Made by a program: the position numbers and the translations under genes. Positions 10,561 to 46,086 of a DNA stretch of 64,000 bases are shown here, one piece after another. The stretch covers positions 248,001 to 312,000 of the forward strand of contig CALSPH010000002.1 in assembly GCA_943788195.1 (NCBI GenBank), written 5' to 3'. Each line of letters opens with the position of its first letter. Position 1 is the first letter of the stretch. The notes below the pieces were generated by a model, which saw nothing but the letters and a program-made list of their open reading frames with translations, made no database searches and was not told where the DNA came from. Source of the stretch: an uncultured Bacteroidia bacterium (GTDB lineage: Bacteria; Bacteroidota; Bacteroidia; NS11-12g; UBA955).

Positions 10561-11235
10561 TGAAGATTCTAGAAGCCAAAAACATCAACAAATACTTTGA
10601 AAACCCGGTGTCATTTCATGTATTAAAAGATATTTCTTTTAGCATTGATGAGGGCGAGTTTGTTTCAATAATGGGTAAGTCGGGCTGTGGAAAATCAACC
10701 CTACTCTATATCCTTTCTACTATGGATACCCAATATCAGGGAGATCTCTTCTTTGCGGAAGAAAAAATGAGTGGCAAGAACAGCAAAGAATTGGCGCATA
10801 TTCGAAATGCCCATATTGGTTTTGTGTTTCAGTTTCATTACCTGCTGCCTGAATTCACAGTTTTAGAAAATGTGATGCTACCGGCCAAAAAACTTGACCT
10901 TTTAAACCATACTAAAATAAAGAAAGAAGCGTTGGGAAAGTTAGAAATGCTTGGGGTGGCTGACCAAGCTTTTAAAAGAGCTTCAAGAATTTCGGGCGGA
11001 CAAAAGCAGCGCGTATCCATTGCGCGCGCTTTAATCAACAATCCGAAGATTATTATGGGGGATGAACCTACTGGAAATTTGGATAGTAAGAACGCGGATA
11101 ACGTATTTAAAATATTTAAAGAAATTAGTGACCTCAATAAGCTTTCATTACTTATTGTGACCCACGATTTAGACTTTGCAAAAAAAAACAGATCGCATCA
11201 TCGAAATGGGAGATGGACGAATAATATCACAATAA
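10560..11235 (+). CDS. LolD/MacB-like ABC transporter ATPase, 3' end frameshifted
   Basis: The ATPase has Walker A GKSGCGKST (39-47), Q-loop FQFHYLLPEFTVLENVMLP, signature ISGGQKQR, Walker B IIMGDEPTG and H-loop VTHD, so it is catalytically complete. It should energise the permease encoded upstream. In the literal sequence the frame changes in a run of nine A (11180-11188) and continues as an alien tail to 11252. With eight A the normal ending AKKTDRIIEMGDGRIISQ appears, with stop at 11233-11235 and 224 residues. The lesion removes only the last 15 or so residues and leaves all catalytic motifs, so even the literal product could work. Transcriptional slippage at A9 could also produce the normal end. 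Confidence 0.88.
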
Positions 11236-11273
11236 AATTAACGTTATGGTAGTGCAATAATGCTAAAGATGAA

Positions 11274-11303
11274 TTTATCATTGCACTTTTGTTCGTACCT
11301 TTG
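11274..11303 (+). promoter_or_regulatory. putative promoter for porQ, leaderless-type
   Basis: TACCTTTG (11296-11303) matches the Bacteroidota -7 box; TTTA at 11274-11277, 18 bp upstream, is a weak -33 box. The predicted start of transcription falls on or beside the GTG at 11310, which would make the mRNA almost leaderless. Confidence 0.5.
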
Positions 11304-11309
11304 TCATTC

Positions 11310-12359
11310 GTGAAAAAAAGCTGGTTATTAATGGTTCTAGTACTTGGAGTTGATTCTCTTTATGGGCAAGCTGGTGGTAAACAAACCTTTAATTTCTTGG
11401 ATCTCAAACTATCCCCATATATTGCAGCCTTGCAAGGTGCCACCATTGCACAGCGCAGTGACAATCCAATAATTTCAACACGTAACCCAGCACTTCAAAA
11501 CAAAGGCATGAGCAACCGACTTATCATGTCATACAACAACTACTTGTCTGATGTTAATTTTGGAAATGTGGCCTATTCTACTACTTATAAAAACCAAATG
11601 ATTAATGCAGGTATTCTGTATGTGAATTATGGCAAGTTTGATGGATATGATGCAGCAGGAGAAAGTATCGGCAGCTTTACGGCAGACGACTATGCATTCT
11701 TCGTTGGAAGTTCAAAAAGTATCAATGAGCGATTAACTCTAGGAAGCAATTTTAAGGCGGTCTATTCTCAACTTTACAACTCTTTTGCTAGCGGTGTTGC
11801 TTTGGATGCTGGCTTGCATTATGTAGATACATCAGGCAATAATAACCTTGGGTTTGTGGTTAGAAATGCTGGATTTGTATTAAAGAATTATACTGAAGGG
11901 ATCAAAGAAAAAATGCCCCTACGTATTGAACTATCCTATTCTGTAAAACTATCAAAAGCGCCTTTTCGGTTTAATATCCTGCTGCATAATCTTCAACAAC
12001 CCAACATGCGCTATATTCCTCAAGACGGGTCGGTTCAGAGTACCAGCCTCGATGGAAATCAAAAGCAACAGCAAATTGGTTTCGGAGATAATGTTATGCG
12101 TCATGTAACTTTGGGCACAGAATTGATACTAGGAAAATACACGCATCTTCGTTTTGGATATTCACATCAAATGCGAAGAGAATTAAGCCCAACCATACGC
12201 AGAGGACTCACCGGTTTTGCTTGGGGATTTGGTGTAAACTTGTTTAACATTCATTTTAATTATGCGAGTAATTCATTTTTCCCTGGTATAAACACCAACC
12301 AATTCTCTGCAGTATTTAATCTTAAGAGTCTTTACACCAAAAAGAAAAAACTTGACTAA
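11310..12359 (+). CDS. porQ: type IX secretion system protein PorQ
   Basis: Start chosen at GTG 11310, giving MKKSWLLMVLVLGVDSLYGQ, a clear signal peptide; the upstream TTG at 11289 lies inside the promoter. The mature part begins GGKQTFNFLDLKLSPYIAAL and continues with SDNPIISTRNPALQ and many amphipathic beta strands, as in PorQ of the FadL-like outer-membrane barrel group. PorQ belongs to the T9SS attachment complex (with PorU, PorV and PorZ) that processes and anchors cargo at the cell surface. The pairing with cmk immediately downstream is a recurrent Bacteroidota arrangement and supports the call. The product is about 349 residues. Confidence 0.88.
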   Translation: MKKSWLLMVLVLGVDSLYGQAGGKQTFNFLDLKLSPYIAALQGATIAQRSDNPIISTRNPALQNKGMSNRLIMSYNNYLSDVNFGNVAYSTTYKNQMINAGILYVNYGKFDGYDAAGESIGSFTADDYAFFVGSSKSINERLTLGSNFKAVYSQLYNSFASGVALDAGLHYVDTSGNNNLGFVVRNAGFVLKNYTEGIKEKMPLRIELSYSVKLSKAPFRFNILLHNLQQPNMRYIPQDGSVQSTSLDGNQKQQQIGFGDNVMRHVTLGTELILGKYTHLRFGYSHQMRRELSPTIRRGLTGFAWGFGVNLFNIHFNYASNSFFPGINTNQFSAVFNLKSLYTKKKKLD

Positions 12360-13035
12360 AAAAATAAATATAGCAATTGATGGACATTCATCCTGCGGCA
12401 AGGGCACCTTGGCAAAGTACTTAGCGGACCAATTCGAATACTGCTTTATAGATACAGGAGCGATGTATCGAGCAGTAACCTATGCCATTCACCAAGAGAA
12501 CATTGATTTAAAAGATAGAGATGCAATCAAAACTTTGCTGCACACGCAGAACATTTCAATAGAGGTTGTTGAAAACACGCATCAATTAAATATTGAATAT
12601 AAGGGTGTAAATATCAATGAAGCCATTCGAATGCCGGCTATAAGCAATCAAGTCAGTCAAGTAAGCGAAATTGACATTGTAAGATCATACCTAGTTGAAA
12701 TTCAACAGGAAATGGCACTAAAAAAAGGCGTGGTAATGGATGGCCGAGATATAGGCACGCACGTAATCCCAGATGCTGAGCTGAAAATATTTATGACCGC
12801 AGATGCCAAGATAAGAGCGCAGCGAAGATTTGACGAATTGCAGAAAAAAGATGTAAATATCACATATGACCAGGTGCTAGAAAACATTGTTTTTCGAGAC
12901 AAAACAGATAGTACACGAGAAATCAATCCATTAATCCAAGCCACTGACGCTAAGATTCTTGATAATTCGGAACTCAAATTAGAAGAGCAAAACTACATCG
13001 CAAAACAATGGGTGCTTGAGAAGTTATCTCAATAA
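12352..13035 (+). CDS. cmk: cytidylate kinase
   Basis: A 227-residue (d)CMP kinase: P-loop IDGHSSCGKGT (9-19), the FIDTGAMYRAV motif of the CMP site, GVVMDGRDIGTHVIPDA, the RAQRRFDE lid and RDKTDSTREINPL. It converts CMP/dCMP to the diphosphate in the cytoplasm for RNA, DNA and lipid precursor supply. The TTG start overlaps the end of porQ by 8 bp, so the two are translationally coupled. Length and motifs are normal for the family. Confidence 0.95.
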   Translation: MTKKINIAIDGHSSCGKGTLAKYLADQFEYCFIDTGAMYRAVTYAIHQENIDLKDRDAIKTLLHTQNISIEVVENTHQLNIEYKGVNINEAIRMPAISNQVSQVSEIDIVRSYLVEIQQEMALKKGVVMDGRDIGTHVIPDAELKIFMTADAKIRAQRRFDELQKKDVNITYDQVLENIVFRDKTDSTREINPLIQATDAKILDNSELKLEEQNYIAKQWVLEKLSQ

Positions 13036-13177
13036 AGATACTACCCCAAAAATAGTGCGTTCAGATGCTTTATCGGCACAATTCAGTTATCTTAATTTAT
13101 ATTATCCTATTTAACAGTCAAAGCTTTAAATATAAGCGATTCAAGCGGTCGACCCTTTGGCGTAATTGAACAATCCC

Positions 13178-14279
13178 TTACTTTATCTCGTCCTTCTTTT
13201 TATCGATTTGATTCTTTTTTGCATCAGCTTCCGACTTTTTCTTTTTTGAATCTGACTTTAAATTTTCTTTTTTCTTATTGGTCGAATCAATTTCATTCTC
13301 TCTCTTAGCGTTATCTGAGGCCAACTTGGTATTGGTTTTTCTTAACTTTTTATTTGACTTGGAGATGGATTTAATTTTCTTGGTTTTAGCTTTTAATTGA
13401 AACTTTTCTATTGACCAAGTTATATCTTTTGCCTCTTTTTTCAACCCCTCCACTTCCGCAGCACTTTTTGCTTGATCTCTTATTTGAACGATTGATTTTT
13501 CATTGGCTGCCTTTTCTTCATTCATGGTTGAAATCTTAGACTCATTTTTAGAAATACTCTTTCGCAATTTCTTATTGGTCTTCAATAGTTTCGATGAAGA
13601 TTTGTTCAAAGTCTTTATTTTTCCCTTTAACATCGAAATCAGAAATCTCTTTTTCGATTGATTTAATCTCATTCTCATTCGCTGATATTTTGTCTTTGTT
13701 CTTGTCCAATTCTGATTTATTTGCATTAATCTTAGACTCTTCTTTTTTTACGTCTCCCTCTGCTTTATCAATTTCTTTGTTAATTTTCTTAACCTCCTTT
13801 TCTTTTCCTTTTTTCTCCTTACTCAAATCCTTAATTTCAGATTTTAATCCTGCGATTCTATTCTTCTCTTTTTGCTCCAACCAGGACTTTTGAAGTTCAT
13901 CAAGATAAATAGCATATGCCGGATTTTGATGGGTATTTAAAATCACATAAATACCGCATTTAGTAGTAGTATCATTTATTGGGGCATATTTTAGATGTGC
14001 AGTAAACGCTGGCGGACCCATTGGGAAAGAAAACACATTTGATGCTGTAAAGACAAATTTTCTGCCTGGCATAACAGCAACCGTTCCTTTTTGCTTTGTG
14101 TTATACTTTTGCCATACTTTTAAACAGTCCATATAGGATAATGGAACAATAGCCTCTTGTACTTCATAAGTGATAGGACCTATAGTATCCTGTTTCTCAG
14201 TAAAATTTATTTCTTGGCCAAATAGTCCAGAAATGATTACTAGACAGATAGGTATTAAAAGTAATTTTTTTATTTTTTT
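13178..14279 (-). pseudogene. exported lysine-rich coiled-coil protein, frameshifted
   Basis: Two overlapping frames (13178-13726 and 13572 upwards) are parts of one gene. Reducing the A5 run near 13618-13622 by one base joins them into about 366 residues. The N-terminus reads KKIKKLLLIPICLVIISGLFGQ, a good signal peptide, but no ATG precedes it in frame before a stop at 14283-14285, so the start is unclear or also damaged. Residues of about 25-130 form a small unrecognised domain; the rest is a long Lys/Glu/Ser/Asn-rich coiled coil. No family is recognised. It could be a periplasmic or surface-associated structural protein. It diverges from the T9SS cargo gene at 14301. Confidence 0.6.
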
Positions 14280-14300
14280 ACGTTAATTTCACCTTGCAAT

Positions 14301-15852
14301 ATGCAAAAAACGTTCCAAATATCGGGGATTTTTTCAATAATTCTTTTTCTATTTTCATTTCATAACTGTATTGAGTGGAAACCCATTGGCCCGCTATCAA
14401 CCCCCATGCCTGAAGAAGGGTACAAAGGATGGTCAGCAAATGGCATTGGACGTGTTTTTGACATTGCTGTACACACGAAAAACGCGAATATTATATGGCT
14501 TTGCAGCCCTAATGGCGGGCTTTTTTATACCAAAAATAGAGGGAAAAAGTGGAAACAAATTCCATTACCTACACCAGGCGGAGCAATACATATTGAGCGC
14601 ACCCCAATCGACCAGAGAGCCTATCGTCTCTTTGTAGCATCCAACATTAGCATGTCCAGTAAAGACCCGTATTCTTATGGCGTTTTTTCTACCGACAACA
14701 ATGGTAAAACATGGGATACCATACATCCACTATTTCCTTCTGAATACAATCTTTCTACCATTGGCATAATGAAATGGTTTAATAACCAATTGATTTACAG
14801 TGTAAATGAAAATGTTTATCGTTTTACGAATGGGCGACAAACCTTATTACACACTGCTGTTGTTCCTGTTTCTGGTGTATCTTTAGAGATCGGTGCTACC
14901 ACAACAACGACATACAATAGTGCCGGGGGAATTATTACGAACTCCAATGGTGGTGTGATTTTCAACCGAAAATGGAATATATCTCCAACCAGCCAACCAA
15001 CCAGTGACGTGACGGTCCTTTATCCATTTACCAATACCGAATATTCCGCTATTGTAACGGCATTATCAAGTAAAAGTACTACTATTACTAATGCAAACCA
15101 GCTGCAAATGTATAAGCTTACATCTTCTGGTACGTTTGCAGACCCACATGCCAGTGGTGCCACGGGACCCGTTCTTACTCACGGAACAAATCCAAGTACT
15201 GAAAATTGGGTATATAGTGCTCACAGTAATGGTACAGACCACCTTGCCACGTATAAAGTGTCTTCGTTCTCTGGGGGCGGAGGTGGTGGCGGTGCATCTG
15301 GAATTGCTTTACCTCTAGAATTCGTTTCCTTTGACGCGCGAGCTGCAGCTATGCATACCGCTAATCTTCAATGGGCTACTGCTAGTGAGATCAATAACAG
15401 TCACTTTGAAATAGAACGTAGCTACAATGGTAGAACTTTTGAAATGATTTGTCAGGTTGCCGGTAAAGGAAAAAGCCATCAGCAGATGGAGTACAACTAC
15501 ATCGATAATGGCATTCATCCGTCCAACAACATAGCTTATTACCGCCTCAAACAGGTCGATTTTAATGGTACATCTGAGTATTCAACTATTCAGTTCGTTC
15601 GTTTTGATGAATTGGGAAGTGGGATATATTTTTCTGCTTACCCCAACCCGGCCTCAATAGAATTGAACATCAAAATAGAATCAAATCTTATAGGCTCTCA
15701 ATTCAAAATTATTAATGCTTTAGGGCAAGAAGTAAAACAGAGGTGAACTATCCAATTTAAACGCTACTATTGATGTAAGTAGGCTACCAAAAGGAAACTA
15801 TACTATGCTTATTGGTTCTGAAAATTATTCGCATCCATTTTTGGTTGAATAG
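14301..15852 (+). pseudogene. T9SS type A cargo with BNR/sortilin-like N-terminus, frameshifted near the end
   Basis: The frame from ATG 14301 encodes a signal peptide, then a beta-propeller-like start with sortilin/BNR-type phrases (NIIWLCSPNGGLFYTKNRGKKW, FSTDNNGKTWD), then a Gly-rich linker (GGGGGGGASG), then a fibronectin-like LPLEFVSFDAR...NLQWATASEINNSHFEIERS segment common in T9SS cargo, and finally the sorting domain starting YPNPASIELNI. The literal frame stops at 15746 in the middle of that sorting domain. Dropping one A at 15741 continues it to VSRLPKGNYTMLIGSENYS and a stop at 15850-15852, giving 516 residues. Secretion through T9SS would need the restored tail. Confidence 0.75.
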
Positions 15853-16525
15853 TTTTTAAATGAAGTATGCTTAAATACGGTTGTTATTCCTCGCTCTTTT
15901 CTATTGAGAGGGCAAATCCCGTAAGACTCTTGTAAAGAGCTTAAGGGGTAGATAATTGTTCCACAAGTAAGAGAGCATCATTGAAAATAATCGAAAGGTT
16001 TTGCATAACGTTAGCTCAAACCAATAAACAACAAATAATATCATTTAAACCTCATTCTTTTATTGGCCAATGTGGAACAGTAGCAGTCTGGATGTCTCAA
16101 AAAAATCCAACTAATTTTCTTGTTTAACAGCCCCTAAGTAATTTAAAATAAGGACTTCTTGTTTAAATGATTTGCTCAGAGTGGTGGTATAATCCTATGG
16201 GTTGGTGACAGTAAAGCAGGCATAAAAAAGCCCCTAATTATGGAGAGGCTTAAATCTTGGTTGATTTACTATCCATCTTAACACTGTTATACTACAAACA
16301 CCAATAAATAATGCTTTGAATGGGTTAAGCAATAGAATAAATTAAAATAAGGGCTATTTAGCCCCCTAAGGAATTTCTTTATTTTAGAGATTTTTTAATC
16401 ATTGATAGTTAGACTGATAGCTCATTATTTTTGGAACTTGAAAAAGTTCGACCTTGCTCTAAAACTGGTAGTACAAATCTATGGAACAAAATGGTCATAC
16501 TTGCCTTTATTTAATTAAAATCTAT
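15853..16525 (+). other. non-coding gap of about 0.7 kb
   Basis: No open frame with coding character is seen on either strand. Weak hairpins occur at about 16227-16252 (aagcccct with agaggctt, one mismatch) and 16347-16365 (gggct-attt-agccc). No RNA gene or mobile-element end is recognised. The right end carries the promoter of the giant repeat protein. Confidence 0.5.
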
Positions 16526-16533
16526 TATCTTTG
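16526..16533 (+). promoter_or_regulatory. -7 box upstream of the repeat protein gene
   Basis: TATCTTTG matches TAnnTTTG and lies 31 bp before ATG 16565. Only a weak -33 element (TTGC at 16501-16504, spacer 21) is seen. The site lies downstream of the ATG at 16481, which argues for 16565 as the true start. Confidence 0.5.
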
Positions 16534-16564
16534 CAATCGGTTTTATTTAACTTTTAAGGGTATC

Positions 16565-19500
16565 ATGAAATATTTATCACTTTTAGTTTTTTTGTTGTGC
16601 TTTAATCAAAAAATTGAGGCTCATGCGGGAATTGCAGTTGAAATTAGAGATGGTTGTGATAGATATTTAGTTATTGGAACATGGCATAGCTCAGCTTCTG
16701 AAATCAGAAATACAGTGAATTCGTCAAATAAAGGCCTGTATATAGATCTTAACCTTAATAATAGTTTTACAAATTGTTGCAACGGGTCAACCTCATCAGA
16801 ATTTTTTACATTTACTGATTATACATTCCCAAAACAATCTGTCAAATGGAATCAAATAACTAATACATCATCAACAGTATCTGATTTAGTTAATTATTTT
16901 AATAATTCATTTAAATACAACAGTTCAGGAATAAAAAATCGTTTTACAGCTGAGGTTGTTTGGAATCCTGGATGTAAAAATTCGCTTGAATCATGGTTAA
17001 TCTTGAAATTACCAAGCACCCTTAAACCAGGAATTGTCTACAAATGTCGAACTTCATCAACTTCAGTTGTTGAAACACCATGTAGTTCTTCAAATATATT
17101 TGAGATTGTTTTCGGAACTGATATCAGTATAAACAGTAAGAGTAATATTTTATGCAATAATGACTCAATATTATTAAAAACTTCTTCTGCTAATGATTTA
17201 GAATGGTTTAGAAATGATACTCTGATAAAAGGACCAAGTAGTGATAGTTCTTTAACAATATACAAACCTGGATATTATAGTGTAAGAAAAGGTGGTATTG
17301 GTTGTAAATCTAGAACCAGTGAGAAATTAGAAATAAGAAGAACCCCACAAATATATATGGGTCTTGATAGTTTCATTTGTTCTGGAGATTCAATACTATT
17401 AGATGGTGGTGTGGGTAAATCATATCTATGGTCTAATGGAAGAAAATCAAGATATATATTTAACTATGGTGATTCCGTGAATATCACCAGAACAGACAGT
17501 AATGGTTGTGTAAGTATTGACAGTTTTTCAATATATGTGCACCCACGACCCAAGGCTCAGTTTACCATCGACGATAGTCTGGAGTGCTTCCGAGATCACG
17601 AAATTGTTGCCATAAATAAGAGTACCCTTGCTCAAGGGGCTGTTCAATCCCGTACTTGGACAACAGATGGTAAAGATTATCTCAACATCGATACACTTAA
17701 CCAAGCCTATCCCAGTGCAAATGACTATACCATTCAACTGACTATAGAATCTGATCAAGGATGTTTTGATAGCTTGACCAAAGCCGTAACTATTTATCCA
17801 ATGCCCGTAGGCTCAATTTACAACTGATACGACACGCCTCTGTGAACGAGGTAATGTGTTTGCCATAGACTACCAAGGAAGCTATATCCTCCGGAAGTAT
17901 CTCTAAGTTATGGAGCTTTGGAGACGGAGTCTCTAGTACAACTGCCGATGATACGACTAAAAGCTATTCTACCTTCGGGTCCTACCCGGTTCGTTTGGAG
18001 TTGGTGTCTGGCTTTGATTGTAGAGATACTACAGAGCAAATACTTACTGTTCACGCTCAACCCAAGGCTCAGTTTACCATCGACGACAGTCTGGAGTGCT
18101 TCCGAGATCACGAAATTGTTGCCATTAATAAGAGTACCCTTGCTCAAGGGGCTGTTCAATCCCGTACTTGGACAACAGATGGTAAAGATTATCTCAACAT
18201 CGATACACTTAACCAAGCCTATCCCAGTGCAAATGACTATACCATTCAACTGACTATAGAATCTGATCAAGGATGTTTTGATAGCTTGACCAAAGCCGTA
18301 ACTATTTATCCAATGCCCAAGGCTCAATTTACAACTGATACGACAAGCCTCTGTGAACGAGGTAATGTGTTTGCCATAGACTACCAAGGAAGCTATATCC
18401 TCCGGAAGTATCTCTAAGTTATGGAGCTTTGGAGACGGAGTCTTTAGTACAACTGCCGATGATACTACTAAAAGCTATTCTACCTTCGGGTCCTACCCAG
18501 TTCGTTTGGAGTTAGTGTCTGGTTTTGATTGTAGAGATACTACAGAGCAAATACTTACTGTTCACGCTCAACCCAAGGCTCAGTTTACCATCGACGATAG
18601 TCTGGAGTGCTTCCGAGATCACGAAATTGTTGCCATAAATAAGAGTACCCTTGCTCAAGGGGCTGTTCAATCCCGTACTTGGACAACAGATGGTAAAGAT
18701 TATCTCAACATCGATACACTTAACCAAGTCTATCCCAGTGCAAATGACTATACCATTCAACTGACTATAGAATCTGATCAAGGATGTTTTGATAGCTTGA
18801 CCAAAGCCGTAACTATTTATCCAATGCCTGTAGCTCAATTTATAACTGATACGACACGCCTCTGTGAACGAGGTAATGTGTTTGCCATAGACTACCAAGG
18901 AGCAATATCCTCTGGAAGTATCTCTAAGTTATGGAGCTTTGGAGACGGAGTCTCTAGTACAACTGCAGATGATACGACTAAAAGCTATTCTACCTTCGGA
19001 TCCTATCCGGTTCGTTTGGAGTTGGTGTCTGGCTTTGATTGTAGAGATACTACAGAGCAAATACTTACTGTTCACGCTCAACCCAAGGCTCAGTTTACCA
19101 TCGACGATAGTCTGGAGTGCTTCCGAGATCACGAAATTGTTGCCATAAATAAGAGTACCCTTGCTCAAGGGGCTGTTCAATCCCGTACTTGGACAACAGA
19201 TGGTAAAGATTATCTCAACATCGATACACTTAACCAAGTCTATCCCAGTGCAAATGACTATACCATTCAACTGACTATAGAATCTGATCAAGGATGTTTT
19301 GATAGCTTGACCAAAGCCGTAACTATTTATCCAATGCCTGTAGCTCAATTTACAACTGATACGACAAGCCTCTGTGAACGAGGTAATGTGTTTGCCATAG
19401 ACTACCAAGGAAGTATATCCTCCGGAAGTATCTCTAAGTTATGGAGCTTTGGAGACGGAGTCTTTAGTACAACTGCCGATGATACTACTAAAAGCTATTC

Positions 19501-21127
19501 TACCTTCGGGTCCTACCCAGTTCGTTTGGAGTTAGTGTCTGGTTTTGATTGTAGAGATACTACAGAGCAAATACTTACTGTTCACGCTCAACCCAAGGCT
19601 CAGTTTACCATCGACGACAGTCTGGAGTGCTTCCGAAATCACGAAATTGTTGCCATTAATAAGAGTACCCTTGCTCAAGGGGCTGTTCAATCCCGTACTT
19701 GGACAACAGATGGTAAAAATTATCTCAACATCGATACACTTAACCAAGCCTATACCAGTGCAAATGACTATACCATTCAACTGACTATAGAATCTGATCA
19801 AGGATGTTTTGATAGCTTGACCAAAGCCGTAACTATTTATCCAATGCCCAAGGCTCAATTTACAACTGATACGACAAGCCTCTGTGAACGAGGTAATGTG
19901 TTTGCCATAGACTACCAAGGAAGTATATCCTCCGGAAGTATCTCTAAGTTATGGAGCTTTGGAGACGGAGTCTTTAGTACAACTGCCGATGATACTACTA
20001 AAAGCTATTCTACCTTCGGGTCCTACCCAGTTCGTTTGGAGTTAGTGTCTGGTTTTGATTGTAGAGATACTACAGAGCAAATACTTACTGTTCACGCTCA
20101 ACCCAAGGCTCAGTTTACCATCGACGACAGTCTGGAGTGCTTCCGAAATCACGAAATTGTTGCCATTAATAAGAGTACCCTTGCTCAAGGGGCTGTTCAA
20201 TCCCGTACTTGGACAACAGATGGTAAAAATTATCTCAACATCGATACACTTAACCAAGCCTATACCAGTGCAAATGACTATACCATTCAACTGACTATAG
20301 AATCTGATCAAGGATGTTTTGATAGCTTGACCAAAGCCGTAACTATTTATCCAATGCCCAAGGCTCAATTTACAACTGATGATGTATGCTTAGGTAAGCT
20401 AACATCATTTGAAAATTTATCAAATTTTGCATTTGGAACCATGTCGAGTTATTGGAGTTTTGGAGATGGAAATACAAGCAATGAAGAATCTCCTTTTCAT
20501 AAATACAGTTCGACTGACAGTTTTGATGTAACCCTAGTTGTTAGTACAGAGCAAGATTGCACAGATACTATAGAATACAAAAAAATAGCAGTTATTCACC
20601 AAGTTCCCTCAGCAGCATTTGATTACAAAAAAATAAAGTCATGGAAAAAAGAAACACAGTTTTTATTTAGCGATAGTTCTATTGGTGCGGATTTCTTAAG
20701 ATGGAAAATTGATGGGTTTTCAGAGAGTAATGAGGATTATTTTCAGTTTATTTTTCAAGACTCTGGCAGCAAAGAAGTGACACTTATCGCAACGAATGAA
20801 TTTAGTTGCTCGGATACAACATCAAAAACCATTTCGGTTTTCCCTGATTTAATATACTATATTCCAAATGCGATTACTCCCAACGGCGACGGTTTGAATG
20901 ATGTGTTTAATGTTGTAGGTCTTGGATATGCGGATATGTATAACCTTAAAATACATAACCGCTGGGGAGAACTCCTATTTGAAAGTAATAAGATTTCGGA
21001 AGGTTGGGATGGACGATTTATGGGTGAGATTGTACAAAGCGGGGTTTATATATACATTGTAACTTTTAGAGATATAGGCTCAAAGGAAAGAGTATTTACA
21101 AGTGGGAATGTCACCTTAATTCGATGA
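16565..21127 (+). pseudogene. giant PKD-repeat surface protein with type B T9SS sorting domain, frameshifted in the first repeats
   Basis: Start chosen at ATG 16565 (signal peptide MKYLSLLVFLLCF). Corrected length is 1519 residues: a unique Cys-containing N-terminus with Ig-like parts (to about 328), an alternating array of six A modules (about 86 residues, IDDSLECFRDHEIVAINKS) and five B modules (about 84 residues, PKD-like with LWSFGDG), two further divergent PKD-like domains, and a C-terminal CHU_C/type B sorting domain (NAITPNGDGLNDVFNV, IHNRWGELLFES, WDGRF). Three single-base gains interrupt it: G at 17811, A at 17880 and A at 18391. Their sum is three, so the original frame resumes at 18506. 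A literal ribosome would stop at 17827. It should be an adhesin or surface-layer protein exported by T9SS. Confidence 0.8.
17549..20365 (+). repeat. near-identical 510-bp tandem repeat array inside the repeat protein gene
   Basis: The marker CCCAAGGCTCAGTTTACC starts at 17549, 18061, 18572, 19082, 19592 and 20102, spaced 512, 511, 510, 510 and 510 bp. The excesses of 2 and 1 equal the extra bases in the first two units. Each unit is an A module plus a B module, and the sixth unit ends after A. Units differ by only a handful of bases (for example GAC/GAT, GAT/AAT, CCC/ACC), which indicates recent amplification or gene conversion. Confidence 0.95.
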
Positions 21128-37409: not shown

Positions 37410-37416
37410 ATTTTAA

Positions 37417-39000
37417 CTATTTTTCGGCATACAATAATAATTTACCTGGCACGCGCACAACAGCTCCACCAGGTGCTCTGGCTTTAATATTACCAACCGC
37501 TATCCGATCTCCGGGAGTGATTTTTGGCAACCTGATTCGCTTACCCGAAATATTATATTGATTCATTTTTCTGCGTCCATCATTGTCTACTACTGACATA
37601 TCGTATGTAACCAATTGGTAACTCACCCCTTTAAATAAGAAATACTTTAAGTATAGTTGAATATTTTGTTGGGCCATAATGGCTCCAGGGGTATATGTTC
37701 CGCTTGTAAGGGCGCCAAAACTAATGGATGGTAAAGGCACTTGCCTTACACGAAACTCCATATTACCCATACTGCGTATCGTACCATCCGACATTCTTGC
37801 TTTTACTTTGACGGTAGCTTTTTTCCCACCAGATACTTTTGCCATAAACTTAGTACCACTTTCTTTACAAATCGTACCTCCAGCGATACTTACCATCACA
37901 TTGGATGGATCTACACCAGGCACAGATATTTGTACGGGGTTATCCAATCCTACATACAAAACATTCATATTGGTAGGTGATATAGTAGCCGAAGGCATAA
38001 ATGATGTCCATTCCGTATGGAATGGAAGGGGATCTTTTCCAGGCATAATAATCTCTCCATCCAATCTGTGGTTGCCAACCCCTTTGGCTTTGGCCACATA
38101 TTTCCCAATACCTTGGCTGAGAGGTAAATAATCTCCACCAATCTTGATTTGGTAATTTGAATTTGAATTGGCTGCTACCAATAGTATATCTGCTTCATAA
38201 CTAGAACCAGCCATTACATAGTTGCTATTCGGCTTTACAAAAGCCTTCATGTCTTCAAAACCAAAGGGTGATGCTCCTGCTGTCTTAGCCAGACGATCAA
38301 TTATTGAGTTCGCCAAATTAAGGCATTCGTTTCGCAAACGAGCTAGATTAGTAACCGCTGCGGCCAAAGGAGTTTCAATTAAAAACATTTCTTCCCACTT
38401 CTTGGTAACCCCTTCTGCATTCACCACATCACGAATCATTAAATCGGTGGTTAAAGAAAGTTCCTTGTAATGTTGTTCTGGAATTTGGTGCAATGTGTCT
38501 TTTGCATTACTGATCAATAAACTCAACATCTTCTTCCTTGTTTCTGAAACTTTTTTCCGTGCAATTAAACCATGGCCCTTTCCCTTTTTTTCTATAGGAT
38601 TAAAGTAGTTAGCATGTGTTTCTAAATCATCTCCATTCTTGAGTTCCGCTTTACCTAAACCCATTTCATCCTCTTCCATTCTACCGCCACCCATTTCTTC
38701 CAAGGAGATCTGCACTTCATAAAGATACTGATTGAGCTCTTCAGCCATTTGCTTGGCTTCAATAGCGCGTTCTTTAAAGAATGTGGCCTTCTCTGGGTTT
38801 TCCTTTTCCAAAGCATCCAGGCCACTTAAAGCGGCTTTCATAGACTCAAAATGACTCTTGCTCGTATTCTCAAAACTTACCTCCATTAAGTGGAATGCCT
38901 TTAACACTTCTTTTGACACGTTCAATGCAAGTAGCGCCAGTAGCACCAAATACATCATGTTAATCATTTTCTGTCTTGGCGACATACTGCTTATTGCCAT
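37417..39000 (-). CDS. GldM-like T9SS/gliding motor protein, second copy (intact)
   Basis: A 527-residue GldM homologue. Its single N-terminal transmembrane helix region (SPRQKMINMMYLVLLALLA and NVSKEVLKAFHLMEVSF) nearly equals that of the copy at 41119-42724, and the long periplasmic part has the four GldM domains (D1-D4), closing GDRIAVGNIKARAPGG. GldM pairs with GldL as the proton-driven motor that powers T9SS. There is no second gldL next to it: this copy stands alone behind its own terminator, 200 bp downstream of the second gldN. It is shorter in mid-region but unbroken, unlike the other gldM. Whether it is the working motor shaft or a variant is open. Confidence 0.88.
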   Translation of the reverse strand: MAISSMSPRQKMINMMYLVLLALLALNVSKEVLKAFHLMEVSFENTSKSHFESMKAALSGLDALEKENPEKATFFKERAIEAKQMAEELNQYLYEVQISLEEMGGGRMEEDEMGLGKAELKNGDDLETHANYFNPIEKKGKGHGLIARKKVSETRKKMLSLLISNAKDTLHQIPEQHYKELSLTTDLMIRDVVNAEGVTKKWEEMFLIETPLAAAVTNLARLRNECLNLANSIIDRLAKTAGASPFGFEDMKAFVKPNSNYVMAGSSYEADILLVAANSNSNYQIKIGGDYLPLSQGIGKYVAKAKGVGNHRLDGEIIMPGKDPLPFHTEWTSFMPSATISPTNMNVLYVGLDNPVQISVPGVDPSNVMVSIAGGTICKESGTKFMAKVSGGKKATVKVKARMSDGTIRSMGNMEFRVRQVPLPSISFGALTSGTYTPGAIMAQQNIQLYLKYFLFKGVSYQLVTYDMSVVDNDGRRKMNQYNISGKRIRLPKITPGDRIAVGNIKARAPGGAVVRVPGKLLLYAEK

Positions 39001-39161
39001 TTGTCGCTCCTTTCTTTGATTTTAAATTTTAAATTGTTCATAGATCCTTGTTTTCTTATTAAAGAACGTTCCTTGAAATGTAATTATTATGTCATATGCC
39101 CTTTAAAACAGGATTATTTGTACACTTGTCTTATTAAACGCCTATTAAAATGAATGAAAAC

Positions 39162-39188
39162 AAAAAAACCGCCCATAAGGCGGTTTTT
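39162..39188. terminator. intrinsic terminator downstream of the second gldN
   Basis: AAAAACCGCC-CATAA-GGCGGTTTTT: a 10-bp stem with U/A tracts, between the second gldN (stop 39205) and the second gldM. Confidence 0.85.
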
Positions 39189-39204
39189 AATGCATGTATT
39201 TCGA

Positions 39205-40107
39205 TTAATATTCCCATAAGTCGTGCTCAAAAATAAACAGGTCATTTTTTACGCGTTCAGATTCTAACAATGCATCTACCCCATTATCTCGAAACTCAGG
39301 AAACATATTGATGTCTTGATCCCATTCATTGGACTCCTTAACCACATAGCTGTCAAATAAGCGCAGTTGAAAGAAATCATCATAAGAAAGCCTCCCTGCA
39401 TCATTCGACTTATTAAAGAGTTCTGAATTAGTCAATATGGGTCTCAGCTGTTCCATTTTAATCCAAACTACTGGAAATTCACGTTCATCCTGGATTCCGC
39501 CCGCAAGCCAACCTTTGCTTATGAATGCTATTCCAATGATTCTTTGTTCCATAACACCTCTTTTGTAATCAAATACCCAATCCTCCATAATCCTGAACTT
39601 AGGATATTCCTTCGGGTAAAAATCTCGTGGTCTTCGTACCGTAATAAATACTGGATTATTTGGAGTACTATTTATGGTATCTAGAATCTGAAATATTTCG
39701 TAGCCACAAACAAACTCCTTTAAGGAATCCGGATAAAAATATTGATCCGACTCATCCATTTGATCAGTACTATAACCCGTTAAGTGCCCATTCATCAAAT
39801 TAGACCATAATAAATTCGGTAATGAACTCTTTTCCCAAGCAAGCACATGGTTTTGCTTTTGTCTGGTATCAATCACGCTGTGTACACGTTTGGAATATTT
39901 CATATCTGCCTCATTCAAAAAGCACTTTGAAACAGGCATGCGCTGTTTAATATTATACTTTTCATAGTTGAAGTCCTTCTCAAAGTTTACGATTGCATTG
40001 GACTCATACTGTGCATATGCCCCAAATGATGGTATAAGAAATAAGACAAAGAAAATATTAATCCAGTGATTTCCTCTCCATGTTGATTTTGCTTTCTGAT
40101 TGTTCAT
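39205..40107 (-). CDS. GldN/GldO-like T9SS protein, second copy
   Basis: A 300-residue GldN paralogue with a signal peptide (WINIFFVLFLIPSFGAYAQ). The core matches its neighbour at 40235: RRPRDFYPKEYPKFRIMEDWVFDY, WLAGGIQDEREFPVVW and LRPILTNSELFNKSNDAGRL. The last 32 residues are identical to those of the neighbour. GldN forms the periplasmic ring of T9SS with lipoprotein GldK. Tandem gldN-type genes (gldN and gldO) are known in Flavobacterium. This copy has terminators on both sides (40178-40214 and 39162-39188), so it may be transcribed separately from the main operon. Confidence 0.88.
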   Translation of the reverse strand: MNNQKAKSTWRGNHWINIFFVLFLIPSFGAYAQYESNAIVNFEKDFNYEKYNIKQRMPVSKCFLNEADMKYSKRVHSVIDTRQKQNHVLAWEKSSLPNLLWSNLMNGHLTGYSTDQMDESDQYFYPDSLKEFVCGYEIFQILDTINSTPNNPVFITVRRPRDFYPKEYPKFRIMEDWVFDYKRGVMEQRIIGIAFISKGWLAGGIQDEREFPVVWIKMEQLRPILTNSELFNKSNDAGRLSYDDFFQLRLFDSYVVKESNEWDQDINMFPEFRDNGVDALLESERVKNDLFIFEHDLWEY

Positions 40108-40177
40108 AGTATATAAACAACGGAATTGAAACGAAGAATATTATATCTGGGCAGAAGTTCTTCGCATTGCTCTGAAT

Positions 40178-40214
40178 AAAAAAACCCATTCGCCAGCTGG
40201 CGAATGGGTTTTTT
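40178..40214. terminator. strong intrinsic terminator after gldN
   Basis: A nearly perfect palindrome AAAAAACCCATTCGCCAG / CTGGCGAATGGGTTTTTT (18-bp stem) ends the gldKLMN operon between the two gldN copies. Confidence 0.9.
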
Positions 40215-40234
40215 CTATTTTGAATTACGACAAA

Positions 40235-41104
40235 TTAATATTCCCATAAATCATGTTCAAATATGAATAAATCATTTTTAACTCGTTCAGATTCAAGTAA
40301 TGCATCAACGCCATTGTCTCTAAACTCTGGGAATTGATTAATGTCTACATCCCATTCGTTGGACTCTTTAATTACGTAACTATCGAACATTCTCAATTGA
40401 AAGAAGTCATCATACGTTAAACGAGCCGCATCATTGGTTCTGTTAAACAATTCTGAATTCACTAAGATTGGTCTGAACTGATCCATACTCAACCAGAATA
40501 CTGGATACTCATTCTCATCTCTTGCACCACCTGCTAACCATGCCTTAAAGTAAGGTGCAATAGCAATAATTCGTGGTTCAAAAACAGAACGTTGGTAATC
40601 AAATATCCAATCTTCCATTATTCTAAACTTAATCAATTCATCAGGATAGAATTCTCTTGGGATTTCTGTTACTTTAAATACAGGCTCCTCAGCAGTACTT
40701 AAACTATCATCTAAAACTTCAATGATTTCAACACCTGTTACTAATTTCTGAGCTTCTTCAGCTGTAAACCAAGCTGTATCTGATAAACGATCTGATTTGT
40801 ATGGTCTTAAGTTACCATTCATCACATTATCCCATAATACAACTGCAAATGGATTACGTTTCCAAGTTAAACAGTGATTTAATTTTTGTCGAACGTCAAT
40901 TACCCTGTGAACACGTCTAAGGTACTTCACATCCGCTTCTCTCACATAGCAAGGTTTAACAACCTCTCTTTGCTTAACAGCTTCTTTATTGTACTTAAAA
41001 TCTTCTTCGTAGTAAGTTGCAGATCCTGTTTCATATTGAGCATTCACTCCAATTGAAACTACCAAACCAACAACTACAAGGCTAATTAACTTTCTCATAT
41101 TCAT
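40235..41104 (-). CDS. gldN: T9SS ring protein GldN
   Basis: A 289-residue protein with a signal peptide (MRKLISLVVVGLVVSIGVNAQ) and the GldN core: REVVKPCYVREADVKYLRR, EIPREFYPDELIKFRIMEDW and WLAGGARDENEYPVFW. It forms, with GldK, the large periplasmic ring under the outer membrane that is needed for T9SS cargo export. It is the last gene of the gldK-gldL-gldM-gldN operon (14-bp gap from gldM) and has a strong terminator after it. Intact, unlike gldK and gldM upstream. Confidence 0.93.
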   Translation of the reverse strand: MNMRKLISLVVVGLVVSIGVNAQYETGSATYYEEDFKYNKEAVKQREVVKPCYVREADVKYLRRVHRVIDVRQKLNHCLTWKRNPFAVVLWDNVMNGNLRPYKSDRLSDTAWFTAEEAQKLVTGVEIIEVLDDSLSTAEEPVFKVTEIPREFYPDELIKFRIMEDWIFDYQRSVFEPRIIAIAPYFKAWLAGGARDENEYPVFWLSMDQFRPILVNSELFNRTNDAARLTYDDFFQLRMFDSYVIKESNEWDVDINQFPEFRDNGVDALLESERVKNDLFIFEHDLWEY

Positions 41105-41118
41105 TTCTCTTTTAAATC

Positions 41119-42724
41119 TTATCTCGTTACGCTAACGATAATACCACCTGGTATCAATTCATTGCTTCTTCCCGGACCCGTTACACGGATACTTCCAATA
41201 AATACTTTACAACCTGGCTCAACTGGTAATCGTCCAATTGCTCCACCATTTGTTCTTTTAGTTAAAGGCGGCTTATTCTTATAAGAAACAGGACACCTCA
41301 CAAGAGTTTACAGTATAAGTAATTCCTTCGTAAGGGAAGTTTTGTAAGTAAACAAACAACTTATTTTGTCCTTTCACTTTTCCAACTGAGGCAGAACCAC
41401 CGGTTATAGAACCGAAACTTGCCGTTGGAGGAGGAACTCTCTTAATTCTGAATGGAACAGCACCCATACTTCGAGTACTTCCGTCAGGCATTTTGGCTGA
41501 AGCTCTAATAGTAGCTTCTTTACCTCCACTAACTGTAGCAACATATTTTCCTCCGCCTTTATTAGACAAAGAACCTCCGCTCATTGAAGCAGTTACATTA
41601 CCTGGAGCAACTCCAGGAACGGATACTTCAATAGGGTTTGGTAACTATCATCCTATGTATAACACATTCATTTTAGTAGCAGATATAGTTGCTGCTGGTA
41701 AAAATGAAGTCCATTCCGCTTTAAAAGGAAAAGGCTTTTTACCTGGAAGAACAATTTCTCCTGCTAAGGTATGAGACCCTGCACCACTTGCTCCTGCAGT
41801 ATATTTACCAATACCACCCGTAACAGGTACAGTTCCACCACCATTTAAGTTAATTTCATAGGTTCACGGAAGAACTTGAAGCAAACCAATAAAATATCTG
41901 CTTCGTACTTTGATCCGCTCATTACATAACTAGTGGGTGCATTAACCATTGCAACCATATTATCAAATTTTAAATCGTCTGCATTAATGGACTGCTGTAA
42001 TTTACTCACTACATTATTCCCCAAGTTTAATGCTTCGTTTTTCAAACGTGCAATATTAGTTACTGCTCCAGCTAATGGTGTTTCTACCAATAACATTACT
42101 TCCCACTCAATTTCTTTCTTATCCGCATCTTTGTAAATTCGTTGTTAATAAATCACTAGAAGCTTCTATTTCTTTAAGATATGCAGCCGGAATTTTCATA
42201 CCCGTTGAATCTGTTGCGTTAGCATCAGATTCCAACAATTTAATTAGAGCCTTACGTGTTTCCTCTATTTTTTTGCGAAGAATGATTCCGTTCCCTTGAC
42301 CATCTTCCTTTTTACTAGCAAAATAATTTGCATGCTTCTCTGTATCATCTGGTTTAGCTAGTTCTGATGTATGATCATCATTGCCACTTGCATCCTTTAT
42401 AGAACGACCACCAGCCATTTTCTCAACGGTCTTAGACTGATCATCAAGATACTTAACTAAATCATCCACTAATTTCTGTGCTTCATTCGCTCGGTTTGCA
42501 AAAGGCTCGGCTCTTGGACCTTGCTTTTTTACTTCCGCTTGAATACTTGATATTGAAGCTTTCATTTTTGAATTCAAACTTGCTCCGGTATTATCAAACG
42601 ACACTTCCATTAAGTGAAATGCCTTTAATATTTCTTTTGACACGTTCATGGCTAAAAGAGCGATTAACACGAGATACATCATGTTAATCATCTTCTGCCT
42701 GGGTGACATTTTTCCACTTGACAT
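41119..42724 (-). pseudogene. gldM: T9SS motor protein GldM, broken by five small insertions
   Basis: The ATG at 42724 starts the normal GldM N-terminus (SPRQKMINMMYLVLIALLA). Extra single bases near 42142 (A), 41884 (T), 41862 (C) and 41290 (T), and a six-base TGATAG (two stops) at 41645-41650, interrupt the frame. Removing these ten bases gives 1596 nt, 531 residues, aligned end to end with the intact copy at 37417: for example DADKKEIEWEVMLLVETPLAG, ASSSSVNYEINLNGGG, ILYIGLPNPIEVSVPG-like and CEVS-VSYKNKPPL. GldM with GldL makes the proton-driven T9SS motor. It lies in the proper operon position between gldL and gldN. Either sequence errors or a decayed copy replaced by the paralogue. Confidence 0.85.
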
Positions 42725-42763
42725 AATTTATTTCTTTAAATTTATCTTATTAAATGAATAAAA

Positions 42764-43429
42764 TTAGGCTTTAGATCCACCCATTGCTGAAAGCATATTT
42801 CCATATACTGTATTCAAATTGCCAAGGCTTTTATTTAATTTTCCTAAGTTTTCTTTAAAGGCTACTGTACTGCCTTCTGTTTCAGAAAGGTTTGAAAGTA
42901 TATTCGTTAAACCACCGCTAAAGTTATTCAATGAAGAATTTACAGAGGTAGATGCTTCTGATATTTCCGCCATTGTTTTCGCTGCTTTTTGAACATTACT
43001 TGAATATTCATTTGTAGCAACGGTAGCATTACTAAGTGTTGACATTTCACCAACATTATCGCTTAATGATTTAAGACCTGTACCAAGACTAGAAATCAAT
43101 TCTGGTCCTACTTTAGCATCTTCTAACATTTGATCAAGTTGTTGAGAAACTGAACCTTTGTCTTTATCTAATTTCTTTGGACGATCGCTCTCCATTCCTG
43201 CTAATTCAGGATACACTAAGGACCAATCTGCATCCATATGCACCGGTTCAAAAGCTGATATACAAAATATTCCCGCTTCTGTAAATAGACCTATCATAAG
43301 CATAAGGTTTGCTCCGGGCCAGTGAAGGATTTTAAATAAGGCTCCAACAATTACAACAGCTGCACCGATTCCATAGATAAAATTCATGATGGTTTTCCAT
43401 CTCTTAGTTTCAAAAAAACTTTTACTCAT
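42764..43429 (-). CDS. gldL: T9SS motor protein GldL
   Basis: A 221-residue inner-membrane protein. Two N-terminal transmembrane helices (IMNFIYGIGAAVVIVGALFKI and LMLMIGLFTEAGIFCISAF) flank the motif HWPGAN, and a Glu inside the second helix is the kind of membrane-embedded acid proposed to carry protons in GldL. The rest is a cytoplasmic helical domain rich in Ser/Asn/Ala. GldL with GldM converts proton motive force into rotation or conformational work for T9SS and gliding. It sits 56 bp after gldK and 39 bp before gldM. Confidence 0.95.
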   Translation of the reverse strand: MSKSFFETKRWKTIMNFIYGIGAAVVIVGALFKILHWPGANLMLMIGLFTEAGIFCISAFEPVHMDADWSLVYPELAGMESDRPKKLDKDKGSVSQQLDQMLEDAKVGPELISSLGTGLKSLSDNVGEMSTLSNATVATNEYSSNVQKAAKTMAEISEASTSVNSSLNNFSGGLTNILSNLSETEGSTVAFKENLGKLNKSLGNLNTVYGNMLSAMGGSKA

Positions 43430-43485
43430 AGTTTTAAATTTTTATTTTGTTATTTAATATTAGTTAATGCGTTTTAAAAGTGTTC

Positions 43486-44900
43486 CTATTTCTTGTCTTT
43501 ATTTGATCTACCAATATAAGATTGGATGGTTCTAAAGCCAATATAACACTTGCTTGTATCTTGATAATCATAGGTTCTGGTTCCACATTGAATAAAATGT
43601 GCCACATCTTTCCATGATCCTCCTCTAATTACTTTTCTCTTTTTAGTAATGGATGAGCCTTCTTGAACGAAGTTTTCTTGTTCCCAAACATTATCTACTT
43701 CAAATGGTTTTTCATCAAAACCTTCTTCAGTTTCTGTTTCATGAACAAATTCAGAAACATCTGTTTCATAAGCAGGATTAAGGTCGTGTTGGAAACTTGC
43801 TGCAGCTTCAGCATAAGTAGACTTAGTCCATTCCGCAACGTTACCTGCCATGTTATATAATCCGTAATCATTTGGGAAATAAGAATCTACACGTACTGGG
43901 TAAACTCCTCCATCTGCTCCATAATTACCTCTTAACGGCTTAAAGTTGGCTAGCATACACCCTTTACTATTTCGAGTATATGGTCCACCCCATGGATACA
44001 TATTTGCATCTCTACCACCACGGGCTGCATATTCCCACTCATATTCATGTGGCAATCTAAAATCTTCAGTTCTACTTACGTTACCGATATTTCTCCAGTA
44101 ATTCTCTTTATACAAGCTTCTCCAGTTGCAGAAAGCTTTTGCTTGATGCCAATTTACACCTACCACAGGATAATCATCATACTTCTCATGATTGAAGTAG
44201 TGTCTTACCATAGGCTCATTGTATGAGTATGTATAATCTCTACGCCAGCATAAAGTATCTGGATAAATCAATGTTCTTTCTTTACGGATGAAATTTCTTC
44301 TATCCCTTGCATTGTATTTGTCACGATCTTCGGCAGCTGCTTTTTTGAAATCAATCCACATATATCTGTAAAATAATTTTCTTGTATCAATTTGCTTATC
44401 TCCATTAAAACGCTCTTCTTCTGGGTAGAACATATCTTCTAAACTCTTCTACATACTCCTCCCAATCCAATTCTTCATCCCAATTTATAGAACGCTCTCC
44501 AGTATCATCATTTACATTAAACAATGCATCTTCATCAACCATCTCACGTGCAATTGAATCAATCACCCAATTTACAAACTGACGATACTCATTATTGGTA
44601 ATTTCAGTTTCATCCATCCAAAAGGCAGTAATAGTAACTTGCTTATTTGGCATTAAGTAACTGTTGAATACATCTTGCTCACTTGCTCCAGTATGGATTG
44701 TTCCTGTTGGAACATAAACCATTCCAATTGGCGTGGGATGAAACCACAAGCTTCTTCCTTGCACACCAAGTAACTCCCCTCTATCTGAAGCCTTGCAACC
44801 TGCTAAAGTTAAAATCCCCAACATTAACCCTGTCTTGACAGTAGGGCTAAAGGACAAGGGCCTTTTTAACGGTATTTATTACAATCTTTTTCATATTCAT
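43486..44900 (-). pseudogene. gldK: T9SS ring lipoprotein GldK, two single-base frameshifts
   Basis: A formylglycine-generating-enzyme-like (FGE/sulfatase-modifying factor) lipoprotein. Start proposed at ATG 44898-44900 (or 44892-44894), reading MNMKKIVINTVKKALVL, then one extra T in the TTT at 44849-44851, then SPTVKTGLMLGILTLAGC with lipobox Cys. A second extra base near 44446 switches into SLEDMFYPEEERFNG. Corrected length is 470 residues, a multiple of three. The body has VNWHQAKAFCNWR, RLPHEYEWEYAARGG, GLYNMAGNVAEWTKS and IRGGSWKD, the GldK fold. It anchors the GldK-GldN ring to the outer membrane. It is the first gene of the gldKLMN operon, with a -7 box at 44927-44934. Confidence 0.85.
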
Positions 44901-44926
44901 GCTTTGCTTTTTTCAGCGCTGACCCG

Positions 44927-44934
44927 CAAATGTA
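44927..44934 (-). promoter_or_regulatory. -7 box of the gldKLMN operon
   Basis: Minus-strand TACATTTG fits TAnnTTTG and lies 26 bp upstream of the proposed gldK ATG at 44900. The -33 region is poor. Its position supports the corrected upstream gldK start rather than the in-frame TTG at 44857. Confidence 0.55.
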
Positions 44935-45022
44935 ACTATTTTAACGGAAGATCTTTACTTTTTTTCTGCATTTAGTAAAACGCGGTCGTTTTGTAATTAT
45001 TGTGTAATCTTTAAAAAAAAGT

Positions 45023-46086
45023 TTATTCAATACTTGAATCTTTATCCAAATGCCTTGGGTCAACCAGTCGTATCGGTTGTTTTTCAACAACAGCTATGTT
45101 GAAACAATAGTTTAGAACTACTTCATGCGTATTGTTATTATTTGTTCTTAACCCACTCGTATTAATATCAAACGAGTATCCAATTCTCAATTGCGGGTTT
45201 AAATTATATCCAATGATTGCGCTTAACGATTCAAAGGTCTTTGTTGAAGTTTCTTAAAGATAAACCTGCTTGAAGTGCGGTACTTAAATCAGCCAAGGCG
45301 CCTAGGTTGAAATCCGGGTTAGCAAACCCTGCACCATTTTGACTTGCCTTGATCAATAAATAAGGTCTTACCATTAAACCACCTGGTGTAAACTCGGCAC
45401 TGGCATTCAAGTATTGATGCCATCCTGGAGCGATTGCTGCAACGCTCGCAAATTGAAATGGTTTTGAAGATAGGTTCTGAACCGCATATCCTAAAGTTAA
45501 ATTATAAAAATTTGGATTGTTGAACCAAACGCCTGTACCAAAATTTACATTGATGCCTGAAGGGTTCTTATCATTTGGTATTCGAGGATCGTTAGGGTCT
45601 TTGTAAATCAATCCGTCTACATTTACTGTTTTTTGCATTGCCCCAATATTTACGCCTACCCCAATCGCCTTGTCAAAAGCAAGTTGTTTCCTGAATGCAA
45701 AATCACCTTTATAATAACTAGTGGTTAAATAACCTACTTGATCTTGGAAAACGGAAAGTCCTACACCTTCCTGAGTTAGGCCCCTTTGGTGCTCTTGCAA
45801 AAGGAATTGGTGCACCATAGGAGAATGTTACAGTCTTGGCGCCTTTCTGTCCATAGAGATCTATGTCTTCATCCCTTTGATCATTTAAGGTATATGTTTG
45901 ATCCTCATATTTCACATACTGTGTTCTTGCCAAAATTGCCACACAATGTTTCCCATCAAAACCGGTAACGGCCGGGTTATACATCTGCTTGTTGAACATA
46001 AACTGTGTGTATTGCGGATCTTGCTGACCATATGCTTTGAAGATTAACCCAAAACAAACTGCAACTAGTAATATCTTTTTATTCAT
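45023..46086 (-). pseudogene. PorP/SprF family T9SS protein, two frameshifts
   Basis: Signal peptide (MNKKILLVAVCFGLIFKAYGQ), then the family signature QQDPQYTQFMFNKQMYNPAV. An extra G in the run of four at 45781-45784 and an extra A at 45250-45252 break the frame. With both removed it reads ARAPKGLTQEGVGLSVFQDQ, continues to TSTKTFESLSAIIGYNLN and HEVVLNYCF, and stops at 45023-45025 with 353 residues. These outer-membrane beta-barrel proteins help secretion or anchoring of type B T9SS cargo. It is a tandem paralogue of the intact gene at 46244. Confidence 0.85.

Follow-up and report, generated by a model that had tools for sequence, protein, structure and literature searches.

The window analysed here is a stretch of 64,000 bases from the genome of an uncultured Bacteroidia bacterium. 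Seven of its genes have interrupted reading frames, and intact genes of related function lie close to some of them (Table 1). An earlier note, made from the sequence alone, had described these interruptions as single-base gains, all in one direction. The shifts were confirmed: plus-one changes of frame occur at the 14 places listed in the window or no more than about 20 bases away, 13 of these sites are backed by evidence other than the reading frame, and the seven sites testable against near-identical proteins are all gains, never losses.

Table 1. Interrupted genes of the window and intact genes near them
Gene	Position	Strand	State of the reading frame and domains
lolD-like ABC transporter gene	10560..11252	+	shift within the A run at 11180-11188; Pfam ABC_tran
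coiled-coil protein gene	13178..14132	-	two frames, split near 13620; overlapping ORFs, plus-one phase change
type IX secretion cargo protein gene	14301..15852	+	one extra base at 15741; P0121 intact
PKD-repeat protein gene, type B (CHU_C) sorting domain	16481..21127	+	single extra bases at about 17811, 17880 and 18391
second gldM paralogue	37417..39000	-	intact; GldM domains 1 to 3 (Pfam) along 527 aa
gldM	41119..42724	-	extra bases at about 41290, 41861, 41883 and 42136; 6-base extra at about 41645; P0241 intact
gldL	42764..43429	-	intact, between broken gldK and gldM
gldK	43486..44900	-	extra bases at about 44443 and 44858; P0001 intact; first site called by 8 of 8 family homologues
porP/sprF	45023..46086	-	extra bases near 45250 and 45782; middle piece matches Pfam PorP_SprF
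second porP/sprF	46244..47332	-	intact; Pfam PorP_SprF over nearly the full profile

Several sites were placed by comparison with family homologues. The six that were aligned to lolD (the best six of 11 loci) all call a plus-one shift at 11181. In porP, a shift at 45233-45251 is called by all eight homologues and one at 45768 by seven of them, the eighth calling a two-base loss with the same change of frame. The gldM homologues agree with the extra-base sites, 41290 being reached by one of the eight. At the gldM pair 41861/41883, two gains are called by one homologue and a two-base gain by the other seven; a one-base loss was chosen by none of the eight, and a single deletion was thus rejected as a reading of the pair. 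For the PKD-repeat protein, in which PKD_4 and CHU_C were found in Pfam, the repeat units measure 512, 511, 510, 510 and 510 bases, followed by a partial unit, which supports three extra bases. The C-terminal module of the cargo protein recurs elsewhere in the genome (in L279), and this second copy lacks the extra base at 15741. Site 13620 was recognised from the reading frame alone, by its plus-one phase change: the coiled-coil gene has no homologue in the other 38 of the 39 family genomes searched, its sole match being its own, and the coding model described below, at a lenient setting, calls a plus one about 40 bases away.

The earlier note had called forty-odd other genes intact. A homologue scan that covered 37,347 of the 64,000 bases returned, outside the listed genes, a single split at 12319, where two adjacent genes meet and which one reference called; it also returned an opposite-strand split at 44437, inside gldK. 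Both were judged false. Matches of gldL were found in 36 of the 38 genomes searched, and neither its own match nor the best match of any other genome has an inner stop. The second gldM paralogue is identical to the database protein P0249 over all 522 aa of the latter.

The most direct evidence comes from near-identical proteins encoded on other contigs, which were sought for three genes only (gldM, gldK and the cargo gene) and compared at the protein level. All three genes have one with an intact frame: P0001 for gldK (99.6% identity over 470 aligned residues, two amino-acid differences), P0121 for the cargo protein (99.6% over 481, two differences), and P0241 for gldM (99.0% over 520, five differences). 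Relative to them, the window has one extra base at each of 15741, 41290, 41861, 41883, 42136, 44443 and 44858, the gldM pair thus requiring two separate gains, as well as a 6-base extra at about 41645 that corresponds to the listed TGATAG. Other sequences of this species thus lack the extra bases at seven of seven testable single sites and at the 6-base site. In these three genes no loss, no other step and no point stop was required, in line with the earlier claim that no compensating deletion is needed; the mismatch at gldK residue 219 (window position 44244) consists of two adjacent changed bases and could mask one gain and one loss. P0001 and P0121 carry no source label, and the window as given encodes neither of them intact. 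They lie on contigs of 54,725 and 50,215, as opposed to 678,791 here, from which we infer that they are independent of this assembly.

Since the near-identical proteins from outside the contig show none of the extra bases at the sites they cover, the single bases that break the seven frames most likely come from errors of sequencing or assembly and not from biology. More precisely, they very probably reflect errors in the consensus of a metagenome assembly, in patches of low quality, and not mutations of the organism. The interpretation of the earlier note is thus partly supported. Its suggestion of sequence error is favoured, the near-identical proteins and the family homologues having intact frames wherever a site was tested. 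Its other suggestion, an unusual recoding process, found no support, because the homologues have a single frame across the sites. The run of nine A in lolD is a plausible slippery stretch, but programmed frameshifting, or any other recoding that lets the ribosome read these genes through, would have to act several times per gene and in unrelated genes, while both homologues and near-identical proteins are encoded in a single frame. No motif shared by the 14 site contexts was apparent by eye, two identical PKD sites excepted, and no conserved shift or slippery site was seen among the homologues used, which are single open frames across the sites. We give recoding a negligible probability.

The window is not the only affected part of its genome, since further patches of shifts occur outside it, in unrelated genes that include a chorismate synthase and a macroglobulin-type gene. 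Four references indicate 12 to 14 shifts in L145 (12.8-16.1 kb), eight references about 10 to 12 in L154 (6.5-7.7 kb), and six references two to four in L136 (5.2-5.9 kb). Two gains are called in L279 by three of five proteins, the other two aligning poorly, and single gains were found in an RND-like gene (L127) and in the chorismate synthase (L143), with one reference each. On contig 1, patches of this kind lie near 25 kb, 600 kb, 833-836 kb and 1,727 kb. The same split-gene script returned 6 split positions in 31,744 covered bases of the window, 6, spread over three genes, among the 194,460 bases covered in the rest of the genome, and none in 244,578 covered bases of the genome of a relative, G009, for which a further test over 69,644 covered bases also gave no split. 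The script labels the 41861/41883 pair and the first PKD pair as minus one because it reads the net frame only. The error reading is thus supported by the intact near-identical proteins in three of the three genes searched, by the patches in unrelated genes, and by their absence from the genome of the relative.

An ab initio coding-model scan over 624 kb was noisy and served solely to point to candidates. At the strict setting it gave 3 shifts in the window and, outside it, 2 plus-one against 6 minus-one shifts. At FS 7, which is more permissive, there were 16 plus-one and 12 minus-one calls in the window and 112 and 80 in the rest, and at FS 10 with filtering, 4 and 1 in the window and 15 and 11 in the rest. 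Neither the strict calls nor those filtered at FS 10 show a clear bias towards gains outside the window. Lenient settings joined neighbouring genes. Some candidates, in L127, L136, L145 and L154, were checked by homology, and one of them (L127:12767) was rejected as a join of two different genes.

The alternative that the strain truly carries these insertions, for example after a recent burst of gene inactivation that followed the loss of gliding and type IX secretion, was also weighed. A common loss of need is conceivable, as five of the seven genes are components or cargo of the type IX secretion system, or likely so, and the near-identical intact proteins prove only that other strains are intact. 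Yet gldL, gldN, the second gldM, the second gldN and the second porP remain intact, and the unrelated genes named above are also struck. Genes such as lolD and chorismate synthase are difficult to lose in a free-living cell. Several gains per gene are also at odds with the very few amino-acid differences that separate these products from their intact counterparts. At the tested sites the disruption is shared neither by the near-identical proteins nor by the family homologues, and the deletions or point stops expected of genuine pseudogenes are missing from the three genes with near-identical proteins. Bacterial frameshift pseudogenes, as treated in PMC2916853, are likewise frames interrupted by small indels, but natural decay is described there as favouring deletions. 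In the Salmonella set of that source, most pseudogenes (346 of 378) have one inactivating mutation, which is an insertion in 17% of the 346, while here one gene can have as many as four single-base gains and a 6-base gain besides, with an intact near-identical protein elsewhere. We consider genuine inactivation very unlikely. A burst of single-base insertion mutagenesis in type IX secretion and other genes, confined to two tight clusters, seems more improbable still; if true, it would be a one-way mutational signature, apparently new for a free-living bacterium.

The distribution of the sites fits localised errors, but their direction is less telling than it seemed. All 14 sites fall within two intervals totalling 11.7 kb, which none of 200,000 random placements matched, with a statistic that was picked after the data were seen. 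The argument that one-way gains imply one special mechanism fails at the scale of the genome, as other patches contain losses: about seven, with four gains, in L154, and two to three one-base losses among the shifts of L145. In L136, a loss at 5210 is called by five of six references. Nor was the statement that most extra bases lengthen a homopolymer borne out. Of the eight sites with a nameable base by our own reading (six being ambiguous), a run is lengthened at five and not at the other three, compared with 42% for random inserts (one-sided p 0.21), so the link to homopolymers is not clearly above chance.

The window could instead combine two strains that occur together, or paralogous copies, in one consensus, with blended alleles in place of read errors. 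We regard this as rather unlikely, and it overlaps with the explanation by consensus error because it is likewise an artefact. It would agree with the PKD extra bases, which resemble blends of unit versions, with the second copy of the cargo C-terminal module (88% DNA identity), and with the closeness of P0001, P0121 and P0241, which are not identical to the window. However, DNA matches to the gldM-gldL-gldK-porP stretch elsewhere in the genome are all short, the best reaching 80% over about 130 bases, lolD has its next best match at 46% (protein), and around an extra base the near-identical protein is otherwise the same at most sites. Paralogue mixing as the sole cause was therefore rejected for lolD and the gldK-gldM-porP stretch. 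The earlier proposal of errors in paralogous regions thus holds for the PKD repeats, and perhaps for the cargo module, but not for gldM, gldK, porP or lolD. A collapsed or mixed repeat consensus has extra bases at columns where repeat units differ, a feature shared here by the PKD array only, perhaps also by the cargo module.

Consensus errors of this kind might arise where a stretch has few or ambiguous reads, so that indel errors of the reads would stay in the consensus; in the two stretches of the window, the leftover errors would be gains. In the PKD array, two versions of the repeat unit may have contributed reads to one consensus: all three extra bases lie at two blocks of adjacent columns that differ between the versions, and they resemble a blend of both, which makes mixed reads a likely source. 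That read cover was thin or mixed, that the platform was a long-read one and the source a metagenome, and what the organism's true sequence is at each site are all inferred. One sequencing platform yields mostly insertions; no clear statement to this effect was found in the literature examined. Indel errors are given as about 15 times as common as substitutions for PacBio RS (PMC4719071). The gene-fragmenting indels of the Kastor long-read example (PMC12007338) are likewise single-base changes in conserved genes with intact homologues. Unlike the two patches of the window, which have gains only, false deletions tied to homopolymers predominate in that example, and its insertion errors are described as linked to no particular homopolymer, so a bias towards gains would need another platform or polishing history.

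These observations amount to a warning rather than a discovery. Genes for type IX secretion, lipoprotein export and aromatic biosynthesis appear broken in such patches, and inferring gene loss or lost gliding from this genome is likely to be misleading. The usual figures do not reveal the error patches: the assembly, in 3 contigs, is rated 94.5% complete with 0.14% contamination.

The frame breaks described in the earlier note are real: gldM, gldK and porP can be aligned to the proteins of other members of the genome's family only with a change of frame. In frame-aware alignments permitting both gains and losses, a plus-one shift was found in all eight proteins for gldK and for the first site of gldM, in eight of eight at one site of porP and seven of eight at the other, and in 6/6 proteins for lolD (the best six of 11 loci). 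The gldM pair at 41861 and 41883 (net two bases) could arithmetically be read as one loss, a solution preferred by none of the eight aligned proteins. The coiled-coil gene (site 13620) had no homologue beyond its own genome among the 39 genomes searched.

As far as sequence comparison goes, the strongest evidence on the extra bases is that of three near-identical database proteins, most likely from the same species as the window. With frame changes permitted, P0001 (GldK, 470 aa) and P0121 (cargo, 481 aa) each agree with the window at 99.6% of aligned residues, and P0241 (GldM, 520 aa) at 99.0%. Relative to the window's ORFs, P0121 begins 35 codons in and P0241 11 codons in. All three proteins are uninterrupted at every site they cover, and thus lack seven of the fourteen single-base gains as well as the extra six bases around 41645. 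At each covered site it is the window that has gained bases; in gldK, a mismatch of two bases at 44244 could conceal a gain next to a loss. P0241 is labelled JGI and the other two are unlabelled; P0001 and P0121 lie on contigs of 54,725 and 50,215 bases, against 678,791 bases for that of the window.

The five full units of the PKD repeat array measure 512, 511, 510, 510 and 510 bases, with two extra bases in unit 1 and one in unit 2. All fall at the sole two blocks where adjacent columns differ among these units (CCCAAGG versus CCTGTAG, and GGAAGTAT versus GGAGCAAT), and the extra base at the second block is identical in units 1 and 2. Since such shared placement would be rare under independent random errors, we infer that the consensus here mixes reads from two unit versions.

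We also compared, frame-aware, 560 kb more of the window's genome (G000) in 28 stretches. In stretch L145, four references place 12 to 14 shifts within 3.3 kb of a macroglobulin-type gene: 9 to 11 are gains and 2 to 3 are losses of one base, and three of the references also show one loss of two bases. At L145:16107-18677 a single open frame runs from the end of this gene into the transglycosylase domain of the one that follows, with a further shift likely near 18650. Stretch L154 shows about 10 to 12 shifts in 1.2 kb, typically some four gained bases and some seven losses (eight references). In L136, a gene that we take to be thioredoxin-domain-like (the scanned piece had no Pfam match) has two to four shifts, including a loss at 5210 in five of six references. 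Single gains appeared in an RND-like gene adjoining the window and in chorismate synthase (one reference each), and two gains, by three of five proteins, in L279, which holds a second copy of the cargo module. A split-gene script returned 6 positions in the window (31,744 covered bases), a further 6, spread over three genes, in the rest of G000 (194,460 covered bases) and, as a control, no position in the genome of a relative, G009 (244,578 covered bases). A wider run, on an uneven sample because its references were partly picked for these candidates, recovered the same G000 patches plus one weak split in stretch L128, and again none in G009 (69,644 bases). Its two window splits, one at 12319 and one at 44437 (the latter on the opposite strand), were judged false. 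At L127:12164-13274 (contig 2, near 240,770), an asparaginase-2 gene breaks off after two thirds of its length and continues, with a change of frame at the junction, as the last two thirds of a polyphosphate kinase 2 gene; a segment was perhaps lost, or the assembly wrongly joined. Five thousand bases of the same genome, L146:15001-20000, are N.

The gains are clustered (none of 200,000 random placements of the 14 window sites was as tight, by a statistic picked afterwards) and fall in genes of unrelated function, some of them unlikely to be lost from a free-living cell. Together with the absence of the extra bases from the near-identical proteins, this makes consensus error the most likely source on the sequence evidence: indel errors would have been left where patches were thinly or ambiguously covered, and repeat versions would have been mixed in the PKD array. 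Insertions dominate among the indel errors of PacBio RS. In the raw data of that platform, indels are reported to outnumber substitutions (PMC4719071), and one long-read example assembly is described as having mostly false deletions, its insertions showing no link to homopolymers (PMC12007338). Bacterial gene decay is described as biased to deletions; of 378 Salmonella pseudogenes, 346 carry a single inactivating change, which is an insertion in 17% of the 346 (PMC2916853).

The window spans bases 248,001-312,000 of contig 2 in a genome of 2,533,270 bases (3 contigs, 94.5% complete). From the three contigs and the relatives, we infer a long-read metagenome assembly. The relatives searched included no further genome of its genus, and the best named matches of GldL are MAGs of uncultured Bacteroidota or Flavobacteriales, some with lake or pond names.

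The one-way gains claimed earlier hold for the window and fail as a general feature, since L154 leans to losses. Outside the window, a noisy coding-model scan gave gains versus losses of 2 to 6 and 15 to 11, with no clear gain bias; the bias is a local feature. The claim that most extra bases lengthen a homopolymer is not clearly better supported than by chance: it holds at 5 of the 8 sites where the base can be named, and 42% would be expected (p 0.21). Mixing of near-copies does not easily explain the gldK-gldM-porP stretch: elsewhere in the genome, the best DNA match to it reaches 80% along some 130 bases.

Both gldM and gldN occur twice nearby (37417-42724). A protein search gave three pairs of GldM proteins, the longest contig being equal in size within each pair, which suggests that relatives keep both copies. 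The cargo sorting module has its second copy on contig 1, at 88% DNA identity. P0122 and P0123, from other assemblies, carry similar modules (97 and 91% protein identity) on quite different N-termini, as if the sorting tail were common to several cargo proteins.

Positions of further features in the window
Feature	Position	State
C-terminal sorting module of the cargo gene	15638-15860	
Second gldM	37417-39000	intact
Second gldN	39205-40107	intact
RNase P RNA, bacterial class A	48809-49190	full length
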